From a virus: DNA of 20,899 bases. The translations under genes and the position numbers were made by a program. Location: positions 1 to 20,899 of IMG/VR virus record IMGVR_UViG_3300021371_001263, one strand, 5' to 3'. Positions 7,183 through 15,522 of this stretch are shown here, piece by piece (position 1 is the stretch's first letter; each line of letters starts with the position of its first letter). The notes under the pieces were generated by a model. The model made no database searches, was not told the DNA's origin, and saw only the letters and a program-made list of their open reading frames with translations.

Positions 7183-7620
7183 TCGTATAGTGGCCGTTTT
7201 AAACCGAAGAACTACAAAAAATATAAAGGTGACCCTACCAAAATCTTTTATCGATCTCTTTTAGAACGTCGATTTATGAAATGGTGTGATGATAATGATA
7301 AAATTATTGAATGGGGAAGTGAAGAAATCGTTATACCATACAGATCGCCTGTTGACAAGAGAGTCCATCGTTACTTTCCTGACTTCTACGTAAAGTACGT
7401 GAACAAAGACAAGCAAACTGTACGAGAAATTATAGAAGTTAAACCTTACAAGCAATTATTTCCCCCTAAAAATCCAAATAGGAGAACTAAGAGATATCTT
7501 ACTGAGGTAACTACATACATGGTCAATCAGGCCAAGTTTAAGGCCGCACAAGAGTATTGTGATGATCGTAAGTATGTGTTTAGAATATTAACTGAGAAAG
7601 AAATCTTACCAAAAAAATGA
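7180..7620 (+). CDS. gp4: Head completion protein gp4 (gp50)
   Basis: 146 residues, close to T4 gp4 (150). Visible family features are the SYSGRFKPKNYKKYKGD start, IFYRSLLERRFMKWCD (about 22-37), IIEWGSEEIVIPY (about 42-54), then HRYFPDFYVKY (about 63-73) and IIEVKPYKQ (about 84-92). The last two resemble a PD-(D/E)XK nuclease core (D...EVKP), as recognised for the T4 gp4 and Tn7 TnsA-like nucleases. In T4, gp4 acts in head completion before tail joining. It is the first gene behind the rightward late promoter, and its stop overlaps the HAD start (ATGA), so the sugar-related genes that follow are probably co-expressed with it. Confidence 0.88.
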   Translation: MSYSGRFKPKNYKKYKGDPTKIFYRSLLERRFMKWCDDNDKIIEWGSEEIVIPYRSPVDKRVHRYFPDFYVKYVNKDKQTVREIIEVKPYKQLFPPKNPNRRTKRYLTEVTTYMVNQAKFKAAQEYCDDRKYVFRILTEKEILPKK

Positions 7621-8228
7621 AAAAATTATATGTATTCGATCTCGATGGTGTAATCATCGACTCTCTCCCAAATATGAAAATATCCTGGGGTGTTGTACAA
7701 CTCAATCATAAGATTGATGTGCCTTTTGAAGAATATGCCAAGCACATTGGTAAACCCTTTTATGATATACTTACAGAAATTGGTATAACAGAAGATCAAA
7801 CCAACATAAAGGCAACTTATGATAAGTCATCATCACAAGGTATTGACGAAGTTAAAATTTATCCTGGTGCTATCGACACTTTAAACACCTTGAAAGAAAG
7901 GGGGTGTAAAATAGCAATCTGTACATCTAAAGATGGAACTAGAGTTAGAGAAATACTCAAAGGTCTAAGAGACGACGGAAAACTATTGCCAGAATTCGAC
8001 TTTGTATGTTCGCCAAAAAGTGGTTTACGTGGAAAACCTTCACCTGATCAATTACTAAATACTATTGCATTCTGTAATGAAGACCCCAAAGACACAATTT
8101 ACATCGGGGACATGATAAGTGATTACGAATGCGCCCTACGAGCAGGGGTAGATTTTATACATGCAAAATATGGATATGGACAAGTGAAATGCGAACACTC
8201 AGTGGACCAGATAAACAAATTAATTTAA
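7617..8228 (+). CDS. HAD-superfamily phosphatase, capped
   Basis: 203 residues with all four HAD motifs: DLDGV (nucleophile D8, acid/base D10), the ICTS strand (T103/S104), K140 in GKPSP, and GDMISD (D165, D169). Residues ~15-80 form a small helical cap (C1 type), as in phosphoglycolate phosphatase and beta-phosphoglucomutase relatives. It probably removes phosphate from a small sugar or sugar-acid phosphate. The gene overlaps gp4 by four bases and is followed directly by a CMP-Kdo synthetase gene, which suggests it dephosphorylates an ulosonic acid 8-phosphate ahead of CMP activation. However, the cellular enzyme for that step, KdsC, lacks a cap, so this cannot be called KdsC from sequence. 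Substrate unknown. Confidence 0.85.
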   Translation: MKKLYVFDLDGVIIDSLPNMKISWGVVQLNHKIDVPFEEYAKHIGKPFYDILTEIGITEDQTNIKATYDKSSSQGIDEVKIYPGAIDTLNTLKERGCKIAICTSKDGTRVREILKGLRDDGKLLPEFDFVCSPKSGLRGKPSPDQLLNTIAFCNEDPKDTIYIGDMISDYECALRAGVDFIHAKYGYGQVKCEHSVDQINKLI

Positions 8229-8941
8229 CAGTTGGTATGATACCTGCGAGATGGGAGTCATCTCGTTATCCTGGTAAACCACTAGAACTCATCAATGGTA
8301 TACCCATGTTGAGACGTGTATATGATCAAGTACACATGTGTAAAAACATCGACACTATTGTTATATTAACAGATGATAATCGTATTCGACAATATTGTTC
8401 TGCAAATGAGTTACGTTGCATTGTAATTGAAAGTGATTGTGCTACAGGTACAGATAGATGTGCCCATGCACTTCAGTTATGTGATGGAAATAGATTCGTC
8501 AATATACAAGGTGACGAACCTCTGATCAACCCAGAAGCAATTGATAAATTAATAGAAGAACATGACGATAACATTGGTGTATCAAATGCTTATGTTAAAG
8601 TAAACGATGATTATAAACTGCATGATAAGAACGTTGTCAAAGTCATAACTAATAAAGGTAACATGGCACAATATTACAGTAGACTGCCTGTACCTTACAA
8701 TCAAAAAGAAGAGACTGACTTTAAACAACAACTAGGATTATACTGCTTCAATCGTGAATCGTTAGAGATGTTTAATAAGATAGAACGAGGTCCACTAGAA
8801 AGAGCAGAAAGTGTAGAAATGCTAAGATATCTAGAAATGGGGTTTAATGTAAAAATGGTAGAAGTCGATGATGAGGGTTTATCAGTTGATACACCTGAAG
8901 ACTTGAAAAGAGTAGAGGAACATTTGAATGCGTTTAACTAA
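8189..8941 (+). CDS. kdsB: CMP-Kdo synthetase (3-deoxy-manno-octulosonate cytidylyltransferase)
   Basis: KdsB joins CTP and Kdo to give CMP-Kdo and pyrophosphate, the activated sugar used in lipopolysaccharide core synthesis. From the 8189 start the product is 250 residues (E. coli KdsB: 248). Family motifs are in order: the nucleotide loop MIPARWESSRYPGKPL (17-32), ATGTDR (85-90), VNIQGDEPL (104-112, metal ligand D109), YYSRLPVPY (162-170), and GPLERAESVEMLRYLE then LSVDTPEDL (second metal Asp, D234). It reads as KdsB rather than the sialic-acid enzyme NeuA. In-frame starts exist at 8129, 8189 and 8237; 8237 would cut the first beta strand (LTVGMIPAR), so 8189 is preferred although it overlaps the HAD gene by 40 bases. 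No obvious catalytic loss. Confidence 0.92.
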   Translation: MRTLSGPDKQINLTVGMIPARWESSRYPGKPLELINGIPMLRRVYDQVHMCKNIDTIVILTDDNRIRQYCSANELRCIVIESDCATGTDRCAHALQLCDGNRFVNIQGDEPLINPEAIDKLIEEHDDNIGVSNAYVKVNDDYKLHDKNVVKVITNKGNMAQYYSRLPVPYNQKEETDFKQQLGLYCFNRESLEMFNKIERGPLERAESVEMLRYLEMGFNVKMVEVDDEGLSVDTPEDLKRVEEHLNAFN

Positions 8942-9860
8942 ATCTGAACCCATAGTTGCTGATACAGATTTTTCTGAGTTCAGACACTTCAACTTTCAAT
9001 GGGAACATCTAACTCAAGAGGCAAAAGACAAACACTTTGCTGATTTTAAAGCATGTTTTGAACAACTATCACAAACAGTAAAACCATATGTTGTAACTTA
9101 TGGTCAATTAGACAATGATGGCATGTTTGGTAACTACAGTTATACAGATGAACAGTTAAACAAGTACGTCGAACACTTTTTCAACAAAATGGACTTACGA
9201 ACAACTATAGATAATAAAACTGACTTACAAGATACAGATCATAACTGGGTATTTCATAAAATTAAGGTGCAATGGTTAGTCAATCAAGCACGTACAGTAG
9301 GTCTTTATAGTTTTATACAAGCAAGATTTAAGAAAATCCCTAATTACAATTTCAAACCATGGAAACAGACGAATCACGAAGGTGAAGTACATGTCCATCC
9401 CGGAATGTCGAGGGTTCATGCTATCAGACACATGAGAGATTGGGACCAAAAAGTAATTCTTTGGGATAAATGTGGTTACATGAGAGAATATGACCAAAAA
9501 CCATTAACGTTTGATGAATGGTATGGGTTATTTGACAATATAAACAAAACAATATTTGGTGCAATCATACCAGACGAGATTCTCGAAGTACATGTACAAG
9601 AAGATAGAAAGGGCATGTATAATGCAGTCAAAGACATTAAAGAAGGAATGTATAAGTCACTTAGGCCTTTACTAAAGGGTAAATGTGACGATGATATCAA
9701 AGACTTGTTTAGACACGAGGGAGAAGAGACAGGCGTTATTCTAGAAACACATAACGACTACATATTTACAAGAAACGATCTAAGAATGTTCTTAGACTTA
9801 TATCCAGGAGAGGTAGAGAGAGTACAAGATGGCAACAAATTCACAATCACAACCAAATAA
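8928..9860 (+). CDS. Unknown protein, HxHPG..R paralogue A, 310 aa
   Basis: Family not recognised. A central motif, HVHPGMSRVHAI (residues 155-166), is followed by a strand-like VILWD and then PLTFDEWYGLF (192-202). The C-terminus has a second conserved block, GEETGV (265-270) and YIFTRNDLRMFLD (278-290). All of these blocks recur in the same order in the next gene, so the two are diverged tandem duplicates. No signal peptide or membrane segment is seen; it is probably cytoplasmic. The start overlaps the end of kdsB by 14 bases, with a GAGG-type ribosome site in the kdsB end, so it is probably translated with kdsB. A role in using the CMP-sugar is possible by association only. Confidence 0.7.
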   Translation: MRLTKSEPIVADTDFSEFRHFNFQWEHLTQEAKDKHFADFKACFEQLSQTVKPYVVTYGQLDNDGMFGNYSYTDEQLNKYVEHFFNKMDLRTTIDNKTDLQDTDHNWVFHKIKVQWLVNQARTVGLYSFIQARFKKIPNYNFKPWKQTNHEGEVHVHPGMSRVHAIRHMRDWDQKVILWDKCGYMREYDQKPLTFDEWYGLFDNINKTIFGAIIPDEILEVHVQEDRKGMYNAVKDIKEGMYKSLRPLLKGKCDDDIKDLFRHEGEETGVILETHNDYIFTRNDLRMFLDLYPGEVERVQDGNKFTITTK

Positions 9861-10656
9861 AGAATACGAAACACTTGGCAGTATCAATGATGCAGGTGTA
9901 TTAGACGAAGTAAAAAGATTATGGAATGAAACTACATGTAAACCCAAGATTATGTCTTTGAGACATGCTATTGATCTGGGTTATGTTACAGATAACTTTT
10001 CAAAATGGACAGATCAACCATTTTCAAACTTCTTCGAAGATACTTGGGACCACAAAGACCATAAACTGCTTACGCATAAGCATTGGTTTTTACACCACGA
10101 CATTTTAGAGAAGGGATTATGGTCACCCCCTAATGGTGTGTTACGTAACGGAAACTTTATACACTTCCATCCTGGTGGAAATAGAATTAGAGCATTAGTT
10201 AGTGCTGATCTACTAGATGTTGATTTAATGATATGGGACCCTCTAAACAAATACGATAGTAAAGAATTAAACTTCGACGAATGGTTAAGTTACTTCGATA
10301 CAGACGATGAAACTAAAGATGAGAAAAACGATGTATGGTTCTCAAGGGTTCGTAAGTTCATTGGCGAAGAAGATACTTTGTTTATGTTAGAAGCACACAT
10401 CACACAAGGTTTAGATAAATTTAAAGATTGGGGTGAGACCATGGAGTCCATGCTCAATCATACAAAACCTAAACTACTCAATTACTACGATGAAGAACTT
10501 GCAAGTGTAGTACACTTTGATGGCGAAGAGCATGGTGTTGAAATCTATGTTAAAGACAATCAAACGTTTACTAAGAAAGATTTGAACTTGTTAATTCACG
10601 TATCTGATAAAATTAAAACTTTTGAAAATAATAAGGTAATTATTACAGTCAAGTAG
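9829..10656 (+). CDS. Unknown protein, HxHPG..R paralogue B, 275 aa
   Basis: Family not recognised; paralogue of the preceding protein. Shared blocks: FIHFHPGGNRIRAL (110-123), LMIWDPLN (133-140), ELNFDEWLSYF (146-156), then GEEHGVEIY (232-240), TFTKKDLNLLI (246-256) and a similar terminal strand (VIITVK against FTITTK). Identity outside these blocks is low, so the duplication is old or the pair came in together. An additional His-rich stretch, HKHWFLHHD (83-91), sits before the motif. The invariant histidines, Pro-Gly and Arg could form a catalytic or ligand site. The start lies 32 bases inside the previous gene in another frame; the two are co-transcribed. Not membrane-bound by sequence. 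Confidence 0.7.
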   Translation: MATNSQSQPNKEYETLGSINDAGVLDEVKRLWNETTCKPKIMSLRHAIDLGYVTDNFSKWTDQPFSNFFEDTWDHKDHKLLTHKHWFLHHDILEKGLWSPPNGVLRNGNFIHFHPGGNRIRALVSADLLDVDLMIWDPLNKYDSKELNFDEWLSYFDTDDETKDEKNDVWFSRVRKFIGEEDTLFMLEAHITQGLDKFKDWGETMESMLNHTKPKLLNYYDEELASVVHFDGEEHGVEIYVKDNQTFTKKDLNLLIHVSDKIKTFENNKVIITVK

Positions 10657-11258: not shown

Positions 11259-12032
11259 ATGGCAAGAAGATTAGAAATAGAAAACATTAGACACCAATTT
11301 GATCAGGGTGCAAGAGCAAACAGATTCGAAGTAAACGTATTTGGTCCGTCAGCACTTATGGGTGCAACTGAGGGTGACTTCTCTATGAGAGGTATCAGAT
11401 GTGTAAATGCATCTTTACCTGGTAGAAGTTTAGAAGTTGCTGACTTTTCAGAATATGGACCTACAAGAAAAATGCCATATCAGGTCAATCATGGCGGGGA
11501 AGTAACAATGTCATTCTTATGTGATTCTACGTTTGCAGATAGATTCATAATACAAGCATGGCAAGAAACTATCTTCTCTGCTCAAGGTGAAATCGAGGGC
11601 AATGCTTTTTTACCTGTATACGAATGGTATAACAATTACATAGGCAGAGTAGAGATAAACCAACTAACTAGATCAGATAAAAAGTCTCTATCATACACTT
11701 TGCATGAAGCATACCCTGTAGGATTTGCTCAACAAGACTTAGACTCATCTACTACAGATGACATTATGAAGTTTGAAGTAACATGGGCATACAGATCATT
11801 TACAACAGAATACAAAAATCCTGGACAACTTTCTGGATTCAATCGAGGTGCAAGGGCACTTGGTGCATTGAATGATTTACTTGGAGTGTTTGGTAAGTCA
11901 AACAGTAAAATAACAAAATTCCAGGAACGACTAAATAGATTACATGGTACATTTGGTCCATCTAAGACTAAAGATAAAACACCCAATAAGTCTGTACAAT
12001 CAAGTAAAGGCGGAAGAGGTGGTTCTTTTTAG
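11259..12032 (+). CDS. Tail-tube family protein (gp19/gp54-like)
   Basis: 257 residues. After the N-terminal helix the sequence is a tube-protein beta barrel: RFEVNVFGPSALMG (about 22-35), then RCVNASLPGRSLEV, KMPYQVNHGGEVTMSFLCDSTFADRFIIQAWQETIF (about 72-107), and a closing MKFEVTWAYRSFTTEY (about 169-184). The pattern of a P-Y-x-V/N...F.CD...R.....W followed by F.V.WAYR is shared by T4 gp19 (163 residues) and the gp54 initiator. The extra ~70 residues at the C-terminus are basic and Gly/Ser-rich. Its size and place just ahead of gp26 favour a gp54-type tube initiator; the main tube protein is the alternative. Confidence 0.75.
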   Translation: MARRLEIENIRHQFDQGARANRFEVNVFGPSALMGATEGDFSMRGIRCVNASLPGRSLEVADFSEYGPTRKMPYQVNHGGEVTMSFLCDSTFADRFIIQAWQETIFSAQGEIEGNAFLPVYEWYNNYIGRVEINQLTRSDKKSLSYTLHEAYPVGFAQQDLDSSTTDDIMKFEVTWAYRSFTTEYKNPGQLSGFNRGARALGALNDLLGVFGKSNSKITKFQERLNRLHGTFGPSKTKDKTPNKSVQSSKGGRGGSF

Positions 12033-12065: not shown

Positions 12066-12767
12066 ATGGGATTACCAGTACAAAAGGCACCAGAATATTT
12101 TTGTGAGTTGCCTTTAAGTGAGATCAAGGTCAAGTTTAGACCTTTCTTAGTATCAGAACAAAGAAACTTAGTTTTGATGCAAGAGGGAGAAAATCAGGCC
12201 GAGATTTTTAATGCAATAGCATCAGTCATAAATGCAGTGACTTTTGGAGAAGTTGATGCTGGCAAATTGCCTATTGGAGATTTAGAATATCTATTTCTTC
12301 AAGTGAGAGGTAAATCTGTCGGTGAAACTGTTGACATGAAACTATCGTGTGCTACAGAAGGTTGTAGTGGCGAAATAGATGTCAAAGTTGAAATAGCAGA
12401 TATCAGTATTAATACAGATGATCTGCCTGATCCAAAGTTACAATTGAGTGAAACATTAGGTGTAGTTATGAAATACCCTAATGCTTCAGTTCAAAGTGAA
12501 CTTGAGCAAAACCCTCAAGATTCATTTATGACTATTATTAAAAACAGTATCGATCAAATATTTGATGAAGATGATGTGTACGATCTTATAGATTACTCAC
12601 CACGTGAAGTTGATACATTTATAGAAAGTTTAACTGTTCAGCAGTTAGAAATGTTAAGCAATTGGGTTGAATCAATGCCAACACTTGAACATAATGTAGA
12701 TTATACATGTGACCAGTGTAAAAAAGATCACTCAATTCCTGTAAAGGGTTTAGAGAATTTTTTTTAA
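12066..12767 (+). CDS. gp26: Baseplate hub / tail assembly protein gp26
   Basis: 233 residues; T4 gp26 is 208. The start (LPLSEIKVKFRPFLVSEQRNLVL, about 15-37) and the GDLEYLFLQVRGKSVGE block (71-87) are typical of the T4 gp26 baseplate family. Four cysteines in two pairs, C95/C100 and C215/C218, could form a zinc ribbon. A strong AAGGAGA ribosome site (12050-12056) stands nine bases ahead of the ATG. The final codons read AAT TTT TTT TAA, where eight T in a row (12758-12765) form a T TTT TTT slippery heptamer in frame; slipping back one base would extend the product into the next frame. Its role may therefore be that of a tail assembly chaperone for the tape measure encoded downstream. Confidence 0.85.
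   Translation: MGLPVQKAPEYFCELPLSEIKVKFRPFLVSEQRNLVLMQEGENQAEIFNAIASVINAVTFGEVDAGKLPIGDLEYLFLQVRGKSVGETVDMKLSCATEGCSGEIDVKVEIADISINTDDLPDPKLQLSETLGVVMKYPNASVQSELEQNPQDSFMTIIKNSIDQIFDEDDVYDLIDYSPREVDTFIESLTVQQLEMLSNWVESMPTLEHNVDYTCDQCKKDHSIPVKGLENFF
12758..12764 (+). promoter_or_regulatory. Putative -1 programmed frameshift site T TTT TTT
   Basis: Seven bases TTTTTTT in the X XXY YYZ register of gp26, one codon before its TAA at 12765-12767. A one-base backward slip gives the open frame beginning TTA at 12764. A small hairpin (GGTGT at 12787-12791 with ACACC at 12804-12808, extended by three A-T pairs across a bulge) lies 22 bases downstream, farther than most stimulatory structures. No proof of slippage from sequence alone; a homopolymer sequencing error would look the same. 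Confidence 0.55.
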
Positions 12768-12946
12768 TCGCCCTTTCACATGAGTCGGTGTATAACTATT
12801 ATAACACCAACTTTCAGTTAATGCAACACCACAAGTATTCATTAACTGAATTAGAAAATATGATGCCATGGGAAAGGGAGGTATACATGAAACTTCTGCT
12901 TCAACATTTAGAAACTGAACGTGAACGTTTAAAAAATAGGAAGTAA
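12764..12946 (+). CDS. gp26 -1 frame extension (60 codons), probably read by frameshift
   Basis: In the -1 frame the sequence stays open from the slippery site to TAA at 12944-12946, adding 60 residues to gp26 (a 293-residue fusion). The peptide starts LIALSHESVYNYYNTNFQL and continues with QHHKYSLTELENMMPWERE, then a basic, charged helix. This looks coding from the first codon, well before the only in-frame ATG (12821), and that ATG has no ribosome site. The MPWE...LL end resembles the frameshifted C-terminal part of tail assembly chaperones (lambda G-T, P2 E-E' style). The alternative is a separate 41-residue protein from 12821. It ends one base before the next gene's start. T4 gp51 (249 residues) is much larger, so I do not use that name. 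Confidence 0.6.
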   Translation, partial: LIALSHESVYNYYNTNFQLMQHHKYSLTELENMMPWEREVYMKLLLQHLETERERLKNRK

Positions 12947-12947
12947 C

Positions 12948-13337
12948 ATGGCAGAAGAAACAGTCAAAACAGGAAGTGGTCAAGCAACTGTAGACCTTGA
13001 GAAATATACTGAACTTGTTCTAAAAGTAGATGAAGCACAAGACAAGATCAGAGAAATGGAGAAGATGTCCAAAGAACTCAAGATCGCAACTGCGGCCGCA
13101 CAACCCGTAGAACGATTTTCATTTGGGGCATTGTTCCGTGATGAAAACGACATCAACGAAAAATCAATTATAGGTTTTATATCGTTTGCTATTATGGTAG
13201 CATTTGGTATGTGTGACCTAATCACTGCATTTTGGGGTATGGATTTACAGATATCAGATACAATCTATACATCATTTGTAGTTGTTACACTTGGTGCATT
13301 TGGTATCAGTGAAGCAGGAAAGGCATTCGGTAAATAA
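12948..13337 (+). CDS. Two-helix membrane protein, 129 aa, possible holin
   Basis: Residues ~17-48 are a charged, coiled-coil-like helix (LEKYTELVLKVDEAQDKIRE). Two hydrophobic segments follow: about 73-97 (IIGFISFAIMVAFGMCDLITAFW) and about 106-123 (IYTSFVVVTLGAFGISEA), joined by a short acidic loop. No signal peptide. Small size with two transmembrane helices suits a holin, but its place between the gp26 chaperone and the tape-measure gene also suits a tail or membrane-entry accessory. The start is one base after the gp26 extension's stop, and the TAATG at its end links it with the next small membrane gene. Function unassigned. Confidence 0.7.
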   Translation: MAEETVKTGSGQATVDLEKYTELVLKVDEAQDKIREMEKMSKELKIATAAAQPVERFSFGALFRDENDINEKSIIGFISFAIMVAFGMCDLITAFWGMDLQISDTIYTSFVVVTLGAFGISEAGKAFGK

Positions 13338-13465
13338 TGGATCCAGTAAGTGCTTGGCAAAATCTAACCTACTTTGATGGAATTATATTTTCCATCTGGT
13401 TAGGTATTCTGTATTTTGGCAAGTGCTGGATCGACGACTATTTCTGGAATAAAAAGGACAAGTAA
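13337..13465 (+). CDS. Small single-span membrane protein, 42 aa
   Basis: A short gene joined on both sides by TAATG overlaps (previous stop at 13335-13337, next start at 13465). The product begins MDPVSAWQNLTYFDGIIF and has one hydrophobic segment at about residues 15-30 (GIIFSIWLGILYFGKC), then an aromatic/charged tail ending WNKKDK. The perfect packing between two real genes and the clean membrane segment support it as coding. Together with the preceding two-helix protein it may form a membrane pair, perhaps related to lysis or to genome passage, but there is no motif to prove it. Confidence 0.65.
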   Translation: MDPVSAWQNLTYFDGIIFSIWLGILYFGKCWIDDYFWNKKDK

Positions 13466-15522
13466 TGGCAGAAACATTATCACAAGAAAAGGTAGACGGT
13501 CTCTTAAATAAATTCGGTTCGTTCTTCAGTAAGAAGAATGAAATGAATCAAAAGCAACTTAATAAGCAGAAGATTATAACACAAGAGACTGCTAAACAAT
13601 CGCAACTCGTACAAAAGGTTTCTATGAAAATGGAAGTCATGGCAGGCAAGAGTAGTAGTGATCTGTTCAATTCAGGTGTTAAAGAGTTGTCTGGTGGTTT
13701 TATCGATCTCGATAGCACTTCTGAAAAAGTTTCTGATAAGTTTAAAGCAATCAGTAACATTTTACAAGCAACTGTCATTCTACCACTTGCAAGATTTGGT
13801 TTAGCAATCAAAGATTACAATAAAGGTGTAAAAGAAAGAAAAGAGAACGATGAGAAACAAATCTCACTCACTAAAGAAATACAAGATGAAGAAAAAGAAC
13901 TTCTTAAACTCGATGAATTAAACGAGAAACACAAAGGTAAACTTGCTAAAGGTTATACGATGGACGACAAGAAACGTCGTAAGCACCTTCAAAAAGAATT
14001 ACCAGAGAAAAAGAAACAACTTGCCAATCTTAAAGATAATAATAAGAATATGGGCAAATTTAGTGGTTTAATGAGAGGACTAATCCCTTCATTAAGCACC
14101 TTCGTCGGGATATTAGCAATTATTGGTGGTCTAAGTATCTATTTTCTTGGTTTAGAAAAAACAATAGAATTAGTTACGACTGGATTTAGACGATTCATGA
14201 ACTTTATTGATAAGTTCTTACTCTTTATCGATGACATTCCAGGTATCGATATATTTAATCAATCACAAAGAGACGATGTAGAAAGAAAAATCTATGTAAG
14301 AGAGTCTCAAATAGAAATGCAGAAGAGAAGTACTCGAATGTCTGACGATATGTTTGCTCAAGGATATCGATATGACTCAATGCTTAAAGGTGGACCAGGG
14401 TTTGTCAAAGAGAATGCTGATGGCACAAAAGACATACAAAGACCAGATGCTTTATTTCAATACATAGACACAGATAAAAAATCAGAAACATATGGACAAA
14501 TTCTAGATAGCAGAATCAAAACAGACACAGGTGCAGATGGTGTAAACCTAGAAGCAAACCAAGAAGTTGCCGAAGTTGTATTACAAAACCAAACAGGCAC
14601 TGCTGGTGATCAGTTGATCATCGATAGAATGGGTCTTGATGAAAATGATGCGAATACTGAAAACATTGTTAAACAAACAAGAAAATTATTAGCAAAAAAA
14701 TCTCAAACAGTTTTCCAATTGATGTTGGCAAGAAAACAATATCTTGATCTTTCTAACTTTATAGTCGGTCTAAGAGGAACTGGTGATGAGTTCACAAGAA
14801 CTGAAGAATATAAAGAACTTATTGACCGAAGAACTGCTCTTGGTAGATACTTAAATAACAATAAAGATTTCTTCGAAGAAACAACAGGCATGACATATAA
14901 ACAGTTAGATTCTAAATTGCCTTCAGAAAGTCTTGACAATGTTGTTGATCAAAGTCAATTTAACGAATCTACATTAAACAAAGTTATAGATTTGTATAAG
15001 CAACAAGATAGTTCTGCAATGTTCTTAGATAAATTTGAAGATAGATATGGTGTGGCCTTTAGTTCTGAAGGATTACAAACTGCTGAAGACAAAAATGCCT
15101 CAGATTATGATATGGGAAAAAGAGCAAGTAGTATGCCCATGGGTAGAGGAAATGAATTTGGATTCATTACTGACATGATGGTAGGTGATGGTGTATTTGC
15201 TGAAGGTGTTGGTGATGAAAAAGAAGGTTACCTAACACTTTCTGGATCAGGTTCTTCTGCAAGTCTTAAAAGAATGTTAAACACATTTGACCCATCGGGC
15301 AATTTAATGAGTAGTATTGAAAATGCTAATGGCGAAGTACTTGATCTAAACAATCTATCTGGAAATGGCAGTGGCACTAACGTAGTAACAGATAACAGTG
15401 ATAATAGTAATGTTACTGTTAATCAAGAACCGCCACAACCTGCTGTGACTGACATGTCTGTAAAAGAATCTGCTTTACATCAATTTGGTGCAGTCTCTAC
15501 CCCAATGCCTTGGGATCAGTAA
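13465..15522 (+). CDS. Tail tape-measure-like protein, 685 aa
   Basis: Long helical protein with a charged coiled-coil N-terminal third (residues ~10-60 and ~118-195) and one strong hydrophobic segment at about 206-230 (LIPSLSTFVGILAIIGGLSIYFLG), a common tape-measure feature. The final ~100 residues are Asn/Ser/Gly rich and end with VTVNQEPPQPAVTDMSVKES and TPMPWDQ, which recalls the C-terminal tails of phage tape-measure proteins. Position agrees: it follows a probable chaperone with a frameshift site, as tape-measure genes do in lambda-like and P2-like phages. The functional counterpart in T4 is gp29 (590 residues); I cannot show direct similarity to it. It is last in the rightward operon, ending 3 bases from an opposing gene with no terminator visible between. 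Confidence 0.68.
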   Translation: MAETLSQEKVDGLLNKFGSFFSKKNEMNQKQLNKQKIITQETAKQSQLVQKVSMKMEVMAGKSSSDLFNSGVKELSGGFIDLDSTSEKVSDKFKAISNILQATVILPLARFGLAIKDYNKGVKERKENDEKQISLTKEIQDEEKELLKLDELNEKHKGKLAKGYTMDDKKRRKHLQKELPEKKKQLANLKDNNKNMGKFSGLMRGLIPSLSTFVGILAIIGGLSIYFLGLEKTIELVTTGFRRFMNFIDKFLLFIDDIPGIDIFNQSQRDDVERKIYVRESQIEMQKRSTRMSDDMFAQGYRYDSMLKGGPGFVKENADGTKDIQRPDALFQYIDTDKKSETYGQILDSRIKTDTGADGVNLEANQEVAEVVLQNQTGTAGDQLIIDRMGLDENDANTENIVKQTRKLLAKKSQTVFQLMLARKQYLDLSNFIVGLRGTGDEFTRTEEYKELIDRRTALGRYLNNNKDFFEETTGMTYKQLDSKLPSESLDNVVDQSQFNESTLNKVIDLYKQQDSSAMFLDKFEDRYGVAFSSEGLQTAEDKNASDYDMGKRASSMPMGRGNEFGFITDMMVGDGVFAEGVGDEKEGYLTLSGSGSSASLKRMLNTFDPSGNLMSSIENANGEVLDLNNLSGNGSGTNVVTDNSDNSNVTVNQEPPQPAVTDMSVKESALHQFGAVSTPMPWDQ

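Follow-up and report, generated by a model that had tools for sequence, protein, structure and literature searches.

In the DNA analysed here (a virus record of 20.9 kb, 20,899 nucleotides at full length, from a T4-superfamily phage that is a marine relative of T4, referred to below as the window), a programmed -1 ribosomal frameshift very probably joins the product of gene 26, gp26, to a 60-residue extension that resembles gp51, and the resulting proteins would have a role like that of tail assembly chaperones. This is the explanation that best accommodates what was computed, namely the conservation of a slippery heptamer together with its frame relation, upstream and downstream signals that stand out against synonymous null models, and the homology of the extension to gp51 of T4; from these findings we infer the slippage itself, its rate and the chaperone role. 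A frameshift of this kind is already known (lambda G/GT), and what would be new is its occurrence in T4-like phages. A full-text literature search brought up no description of a gp26/gp51 frameshift; subscription papers were thinly covered by this search, so there may be an earlier one. The available portions of PMC5009743, PMC10885494, PMC3004832 and PMC3037559 do not mention it either.

The features of the region are collected in Table 1. In profile searches, the product of gene 26 matches the T4_baseplate family (PF12322) with an E-value of 7.1e-53 and 180 bits, above the curated cut-off of 24.5, and phrog_150 with an E-value of 1.3e-55. The 3' end of the gene reads, in frame, GAG AAT TTT TTT TAA, with eight T's at 12758-12765. 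The preliminary description of this DNA, made from the letters alone, had placed a T TTT TTT heptamer in the gp26 frame one codon before the stop; the heptamer and its frame are as described, whereas the distance has to be corrected, the heptamer (12758-12764) touching the stop codon (12765-12767). After a slip of one base back, the next codon would be 12764-12766, and from there the -1 frame is indeed open for 60 codons (12764-12943) up to a stop at 12944-12946. The extension had also been said to contain a single ATG; we count four in-frame ATG codons, the first of which (12821) falls within a conserved FQLMQHH stretch, and one GTG at 12788.

Table 1. Features of the proposed frameshift region and its neighbours in the window
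Feature	Position	Strand	Evidence
Tail tube protein gene, directly upstream of gene 26	11259..12032	+	phrog_45 tail tube, E 2.3e-32
Gene 26, zero-frame product gp26, 233 aa, short 'G-like' chaperone (proposed role)	12066..12767	+	PF12322, phrog_150, AlphaFold2
SD-like AAAGGG, 9 nt 5' of heptamer	12743..12748	+	anti-SD match; weak in the window, -4.5 kcal/mol
Slippery heptamer T-TTT-TTT	12758..12764	+	sequence; directly abuts the gp26 stop TAA
-1 frame extension, 60 codons and stop, C-terminal (gp51 / 'T-like') part of the proposed fusion	12764..12946	+	phrog_634
5' arm of proposed stimulatory stem, CCCUUUC-A-CAUG, 6 nt 3' of heptamer	12771..12782	+	covariation, base-pair probability
Pair of predicted hairpins within the long-range stem, 12787-12808 and 12813-12850	12787..12850	+	MFE fold
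3' arm of proposed stem, CAUG-G-GAAAGGG, within the part of the extension that codes for PWERE	12867..12878	+	covariation, base-pair probability
685-aa gene, putative, in tape-measure position	13465..15522	+	position; equivalents match tape-measure PHROGs

The extension matches the profile of phrog_634, 'baseplate hub assembly catalyst' (gp51), with an E-value of 2.8e-25, and also the C-terminal end of phrog_150 (E 7.9e-5). A tblastn search with the extension (E limit 10) matched 612 phage records, 562 of these over at least 80% of its length; with a T4-type gp51 as the query, 1339 phage records were matched, 1334 over at least 80% of the query. Both gp26 (208 aa) and gp51 (249 aa) of T4 match PF12322 (8.8e-64 and 3.9e-52, respectively), and phrog_634 is matched by T4 gp51 only (residues 147-246, 1.2e-23), not by T4 gp26. 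Judged from these sequence comparisons, the extension corresponds to the C-terminal part of T4 gp51, and T4 gp26 and gp51 are paralogues that both belong to PF12322. Because PF12322 and phrog_634 both match gp51 of T4, the latter can be read as a one-frame gp26-like protein with the extension attached. T4 gp26 is thus of the same family as the zero-frame product of the window, and T4 gp51 shares with the fusion proposed for the window both the family and the C-terminal extension; the difference is that T4 has two genes, on opposite strands, with gp51 encoded in a single frame and the heptamer absent from T-even gp26. With the extension being part of a single-frame gp51, T4 would obtain a short and a long form from two genes, where the relatives would use one gene and a slip. 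According to the T4 annotation, gene 26' (L090:4303-4590) yields a further short form, gp26', by internal in-frame initiation.

The conservation of the slip site was assessed in two sets of loci. Set 1 comprises the window and 84 viral contigs (85 loci, the nearest relatives among the matches listed) along with 18 named isolates, 103 loci altogether, from which L001 (the window itself) and the T-even loci L090, L100 and L101 were left out; the second set consists of 80 loci, again the nearest relatives among the matches listed, from a search with a cyanophage extension, and shares some contigs with set 1. The -1 relation of the extension to gp26, with an xxT-TTT-TTN run shortly 5' of the gp26 stop, is found in all 85 loci of the window and contigs (among the matches listed), and the -1 relation also in all 18 isolates. 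A T-TTT-TTN heptamer lies by the gp26 stop in 100 of the 103 set-1 loci and in 80 of the 80 loci of the second set (among the matches listed in both cases), so that heptamer and -1 frame are kept together in the relatives. In set 1, the spelling is TTTTTTC in 46, TTTTTTT in 37 and TTTTTTA in 17 (100 loci, among the matches listed), and the stop follows the heptamer after 0 codons in 39 loci, 1 codon in 55, 2 codons in 2 and 8-9 codons in 4 (among the matches listed). The isolates with the heptamer include Kyanoviridae, pelagiphage Mosig, Methylophilales phage Melnitz, KVP40, CC2, S13, pf16, YB07, phiM7 and IG49, as well as Aeh1, phiAS5 and Ah1. The extension stands in the -1 relation without the heptamer in phiA8-29 (L095) and TSW001 (L106), which have CTT TTC, in K444 (L098), with CTT TTT, and in phiEa2809 (L124), with ATT TTC; these four phages may depend on re-initiation or on the slip of a single tRNA at the final Phe codon.

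The first alternative on which these counts bear is that the T homopolymer was misread or misassembled and that the gene is in truth one fused frame. Homopolymers are error-prone and T4 gp51 is just such a one-frame fusion; nevertheless, the same frame relation in 103 loci and in the 80 partly shared loci of the second search (among the matches listed), the agreement of many separately deposited isolates and the recurrence of the heptamer in three spellings exclude such an error in practice, and we regard its probability as negligible. Moreover, around the slip site the window agrees letter for letter with two other metagenome contigs (L002 and L003), over a stretch that runs from 10 nt upstream to 30 nt downstream of the first base of the heptamer.

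Could the T run simply follow from conserved residues and codon usage? In the rest of the set-1 gp26 genes, Phe is encoded by TTT in 714 of 1000 cases and codons for N, S and D end in T in 2783 of 4149; therefore, were only the residues conserved, codon usage alone would be expected to produce the T run in about half of the loci. A stronger argument for the conservation of the heptamer as such comes from the T-even phages, which constitute a natural control: their gp26 mostly keeps the aligned Phe-Phe, spelled TTC TTT (for example, GAG TTC TTT GAG), and the heptamer is found in none of the 12 complete gene ends, two of which belong to the same phage. This agrees with the earlier remark that no slip is known at gp26 of T4 itself. 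In the T-even phages, the -1 frame stays open into the gene that follows, which is annotated as gp25 in T4.

The bacterial -1 frameshift cassettes of the dnaX and IS type consist of an SD sequence, a heptamer and a stem, and the region analysed here resembles them in all three respects, with an SD-like sequence about 9-10 nt upstream of the heptamer and a structure about 6 nt downstream; it differs in that the heptamer is U-UUU-UUN and in that, in the lineage of the window, the stem closes over ~90 nt with inner hairpins rather than forming a simple hairpin. In many relatives, the upstream element reads GAGGG or, frequently, GGAGG, some 10 nt ahead of the heptamer. In 79 sequences (set 1 minus those at least 90% alike, among the matches listed), the mean anti-SD energy at this site is -6.17 kcal/mol, compared with -4.83 kcal/mol in a synonymous-codon null (z -8.3). 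There is no such excess at seven control positions, and the excess was found again in the second set (z -5.8, among the matches listed).

The RNA downstream of the heptamer is predicted to be strongly folded. In the window, the pairs of the stem (12771-12777/12872-12878 and 12779-12782/12867-12870) have base-pair probabilities of 0.93-1.00, and the minimum free energy fold of 12765-12883 reaches -35.6 kcal/mol, compared with a mean of -17.7 kcal/mol in synonymous recodings, none of the 1000 being as low (z -4.5). Among the 79 sequences (among the matches listed), the segment from +6 to +50 relative to the heptamer is more structured than its synonymous recodings at p<=0.05 in 29, and control windows further 3' show no structure excess over such recodings. 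For the longer segment +1..+119, the mean z is -2.52 over 69 sequences, with p<=0.05 in 48 (among the matches listed). A single consensus hairpin for all relatives was considered and rejected: a 7-bp local stem at +6 is perfect in 7 of 100 loci and has three or fewer pairs in 37 of 100 (among the matches listed), and RNAalifold returned no consensus structure for the 69 gapless set-1 sequences (alignment A3, from which 10 of the 79 without WER at the common position were left out).

The arm at +6 can pair with the WERE codons some 100 nt downstream (z about -2 there, compared with -0.5 to +0.5 elsewhere). When all column pairs of A3 were scanned for covariation against permutation of codons within each residue, that is, among synonymous codons, columns 18-117 ranked first (z 5.8), 19-37 second and 15-120 third (z 5.7); the first and third pairs fall at wobble positions within a single helix (14-20 with 115-121). 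Within this helix, 84.6% of the cells can pair, compared with 80.5% in shuffles and 42-68% in slid registers, and 48 cells show double changes compared with 22.6 in shuffles, with none of the 500 shuffles as high. On a tree built from the gp26 protein, columns 15/120 require 12 joint changes against 3.4 expected, nine of them between C-G and U-A, and columns 18/117 require 4 against 1.3 expected. All seven outer pairs of the helix can form in 36 of the 69 set-1 sequences, and four or fewer in 17 of the 69 (among the matches listed).

Because the second set overlaps set 1 in some contigs, the structure statistics were limited to 40 of its 80 loci, all of them more than 10% different from set 1 as well as from one another, and covariation to 37 of these 40. 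There, the long-range helix shows no covariation (columns 15-120 rank 5846 of 6555; 37 loci, among the matches listed), so the long-range stem is lineage-specific. What the second set does have is a strong local hairpin just 3' of the heptamer (z -2.87, p<=0.05 in 35 of 40, among the matches listed). The Leu wobble base at column 18 covaries in this set with columns 33-39 of the extension, which fits a local hairpin in the cyanophage-like relatives. Thus, the heptamer, the upstream element and a downstream structure are general to both sets, and the form of the structure depends on the lineage.

A fusion could also be produced by slippage of the RNA polymerase, rather than of the ribosome, on the T run. 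Other genes are known in which long T runs give rise to slippage, and the window has eight T's in a row; by contrast, the run is only TTTTTT followed by C in 46 of the 103 set-1 loci and in 76 of the 80 second-set loci (among the matches listed), and the 5' SD and the 3' structure are signals of ribosomal slippage. We therefore consider transcriptional slippage highly improbable.

Somewhat different evidence is required for the possibility that gp51 is a separate small protein, whose translation begins at a start codon of its own or by termination-reinitiation at the stop of gp26, with the -1 overlap reflecting ordinary gene packing. In P-SSM2, S-PM2, KVP40 and Mosig, among others, a separate gp51 coding sequence is annotated, and gp51 has a gene of its own in T4, albeit one that joins this segment to a gp26-like domain. 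Between the preceding stop of the -1 frame and codon 14 of the extension, 50 of 100 set-1 loci have no ATG, GTG or TTG, 28 have GTG or TTG only and 22 have an ATG, and an SD-like sequence lies 5' of such a start in 2 of the 100 (among the matches listed); in the 40 second-set loci, the same stretch has no start in 9, GTG or TTG only in 12 and an ATG in 19 (among the matches listed). In CC2, there is no start codon from the previous -1-frame stop to codon 21. A clear internal start with a ribosome site, which the preliminary description had named as evidence that would speak against the slip, is therefore rare among the set-1 relatives. Furthermore, in codons 4-21, which precede the first common Met, divergence at the three codon positions is 0.334, 0.237 and 0.562, and since third positions diverge more than first and second ones, this stretch has the pattern of translated sequence. 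Finally, under separate initiation, there would be no reason for the heptamer, the 5' SD and the 3' structure to be conserved. In view of the start-codon counts, re-initiation is possible in part of the phages and is not the general route; as an account of the gene pair as a whole, independent translation of gp51 is very unlikely. The heptamer, the SD-like element and the RNA structure, all conserved, and the many relatives without a start in the -1 frame support the original proposal of a programmed -1 frameshift in a gene resembling those for tail assembly chaperones.

What could the two products be doing? In phage lambda, a low-level -1 shift yields gpG and gpGT, of which the G part binds the tape measure and the T part a tail subunit, and both proteins are absent from the virion, according to the available part of PMC5009743. 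As in lambda, there are two overlapping frames in the -1 relation, with a heptamer at the 3' end of the first; the differences lie in the protein family (PF12322, T4 superfamily), in the U-rich heptamer, in the stop that mostly lies within one codon of the heptamer in the relatives, in the 3' structure and 5' SD signals, and in the fact that the T4 superfamily includes a T-even branch with the pair as two genes. Xu, Hendrix and Duda reportedly described in 2004 the tail-assembly-chaperone frameshift as conserved.

An AlphaFold2 model of gp26 (pLDDT 91) was compared with known structures. Foldseek found no match in the PDB at E<=0.001 for this model or for a T4-type gp51. In a VIA structural alignment, the best matches of the gp26 model are 3fgx (Z 7.6) and 2ob9 (Z 7.4), followed by rows at 4.6 and 3.8, with the reservation that a Z below 8 may reflect a common arrangement. 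The second of these is the HK97 tail assembly chaperone, to which residues 1-85 of the predicted gp26 align over 83 residues with an rmsd of 4.0; the identity is 11%, and the further C-terminal part of gp26 is left uncovered. The resemblance of the predicted fold to the HK97 chaperone is suggestive.

The preliminary description stated that a tape-measure-like gene follows, which is borne out only in part, by the position of the 685-aa gene and by weak matches to tape-measure PHROGs in two of its seven positional equivalents (Melnitz, 1.6e-6; phiM7, 1.6e-5); two small genes intervene, however, and the 685-aa gene itself has no family match below E 0.08 in the Pfam and PHROG profile searches, so that its identity as a tape measure is unproven. 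The small genes are located at 12948-13337 (129 aa, with hydrophobic stretches by eye) and 13337-13465 (42 aa, phrog_9048), and in pelagiphage Mosig, too, this place is occupied by two small genes. Elsewhere in the window, a gene for a HAD-type hydrolase (7617-8228; PF13419, 1.2e-28) overlaps by 100 nt one for a cytidylyltransferase (8129-8941; PF02348, 2.3e-41), which possibly form a phage-borne sugar-nucleotide pair; the adjacent overlapping genes at 8928-9860 and 9829-10656 encode proteins of 310 and 275 aa with no Pfam match at E<=0.001.

These observations have to be weighed against the possibility that the frameshift is real and that its products act in hub assembly, unrelated to the tail assembly chaperones of the lambda type. 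In the available part of PMC3004832, T4 gp51 is described as essential for assembly yet missing from the particle, with a function that is unknown, and gp26 is listed as a hub assembly chaperone, with other cited work placing gp26 in the hub. The suggestive nature of the fold match and the 685-aa gene of the window, without a tape-measure match, point the same way. Conversely, gene 26 is located between the tail tube gene and a large gene with equivalents, in two phages, that weakly match tape measures, and one of the two best VIA matches is the HK97 tail assembly chaperone. On balance, we find an unrelated hub function rather unlikely and favour the chaperone-like role.

The following scenario best accommodates these findings. 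Gene 26 would encode a tail-assembly-chaperone-like protein, and most ribosomes would stop at the TAA after U-UUU-UUU, releasing gp26. A minority would be paused by the downstream RNA structure (in the window, two hairpins enclosed by a long-range stem 6 nt past the heptamer) and, aided by the upstream SD-like sequence, would slip back one base and go on to make a protein of about 293 aa that consists of gp26 and the 60-residue gp51 extension. By analogy with gpG and gpGT of lambda, gp26 would coat the tape-measure protein, and the C-terminal part of the fusion would recruit subunits of the tail tube or hub. In T4, the two forms would be made by two paralogous genes, 26 for the short one and 51, in one frame, for the long one.

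Among 25 annotated regions (3 of the T-even type and 22 of the frameshift type), the frames are joined in none of the 22 frameshift-type annotations, and in 7 of the 22 there is no gene over the extension (S-H9-1, S-WAM1, CC2, S13, Aeh1, Ah1 and phiEa2809). The loci with a conserved, unannotated extension are L121 (Aeh1), L096 (CC2), L097 (S13), L123 (Ah1), L086, L087 and L124 (phiEa2809). In the available part of Sullivan et al. 2010 (PMC3037559), gp51 is reported missing in Aeh1 only, and cyanophage gp51 has ~20% of the full length. Aeh1 does encode the extension, unannotated, immediately 3' of GAT TTT TTC GAC TGA (L121:1501-1662). In a phylogenetic tree, unrooted and with long branches flagged, frameshift-type gp26, T-even gp26 and T-even gp51 form three separate groups; because of these properties of the tree, a duplication followed by loss of the slip is inferred from the distribution of the forms. 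We consider it probable that, in much of the T4 superfamily (marine cyanophages, pelagiphages, vibriophage KVP40, large Aeromonas phages, and phages of Sinorhizobium, Stenotrophomonas and Pseudomonas), what T4 has as the essential genes 26 and 51 is a single chaperone gene with a frameshift; that the T4 gp51 'catalyst' is a hard-wired long form, born by duplication and slip loss; that it is an artefact of annotation when gp51 is called 'truncated' in cyanophages and 'missing' in Aeh1; and that the RNA stimulator was rebuilt in different lineages, as a local hairpin in one and a ~90-nt long-range stem in another.

T4 serves as the textbook example of a contractile phage, and relatives of it abound in the sea. 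A frameshift at the 3' end of gene 26 would account for the mere 'stump' of gene 51 that many T4-like phages seemed to have compared with the full-length copy of T4, and would resolve both the short gp51 of cyanophages and the missing gp51 of Aeh1; it matters for the annotation of hundreds of genomes. It would also give gp26 and gp51 a likely job, that of short and long tail assembly chaperones, a role that can be put to the test in T4 itself, where the short and long forms may be separately deleted or titrated.
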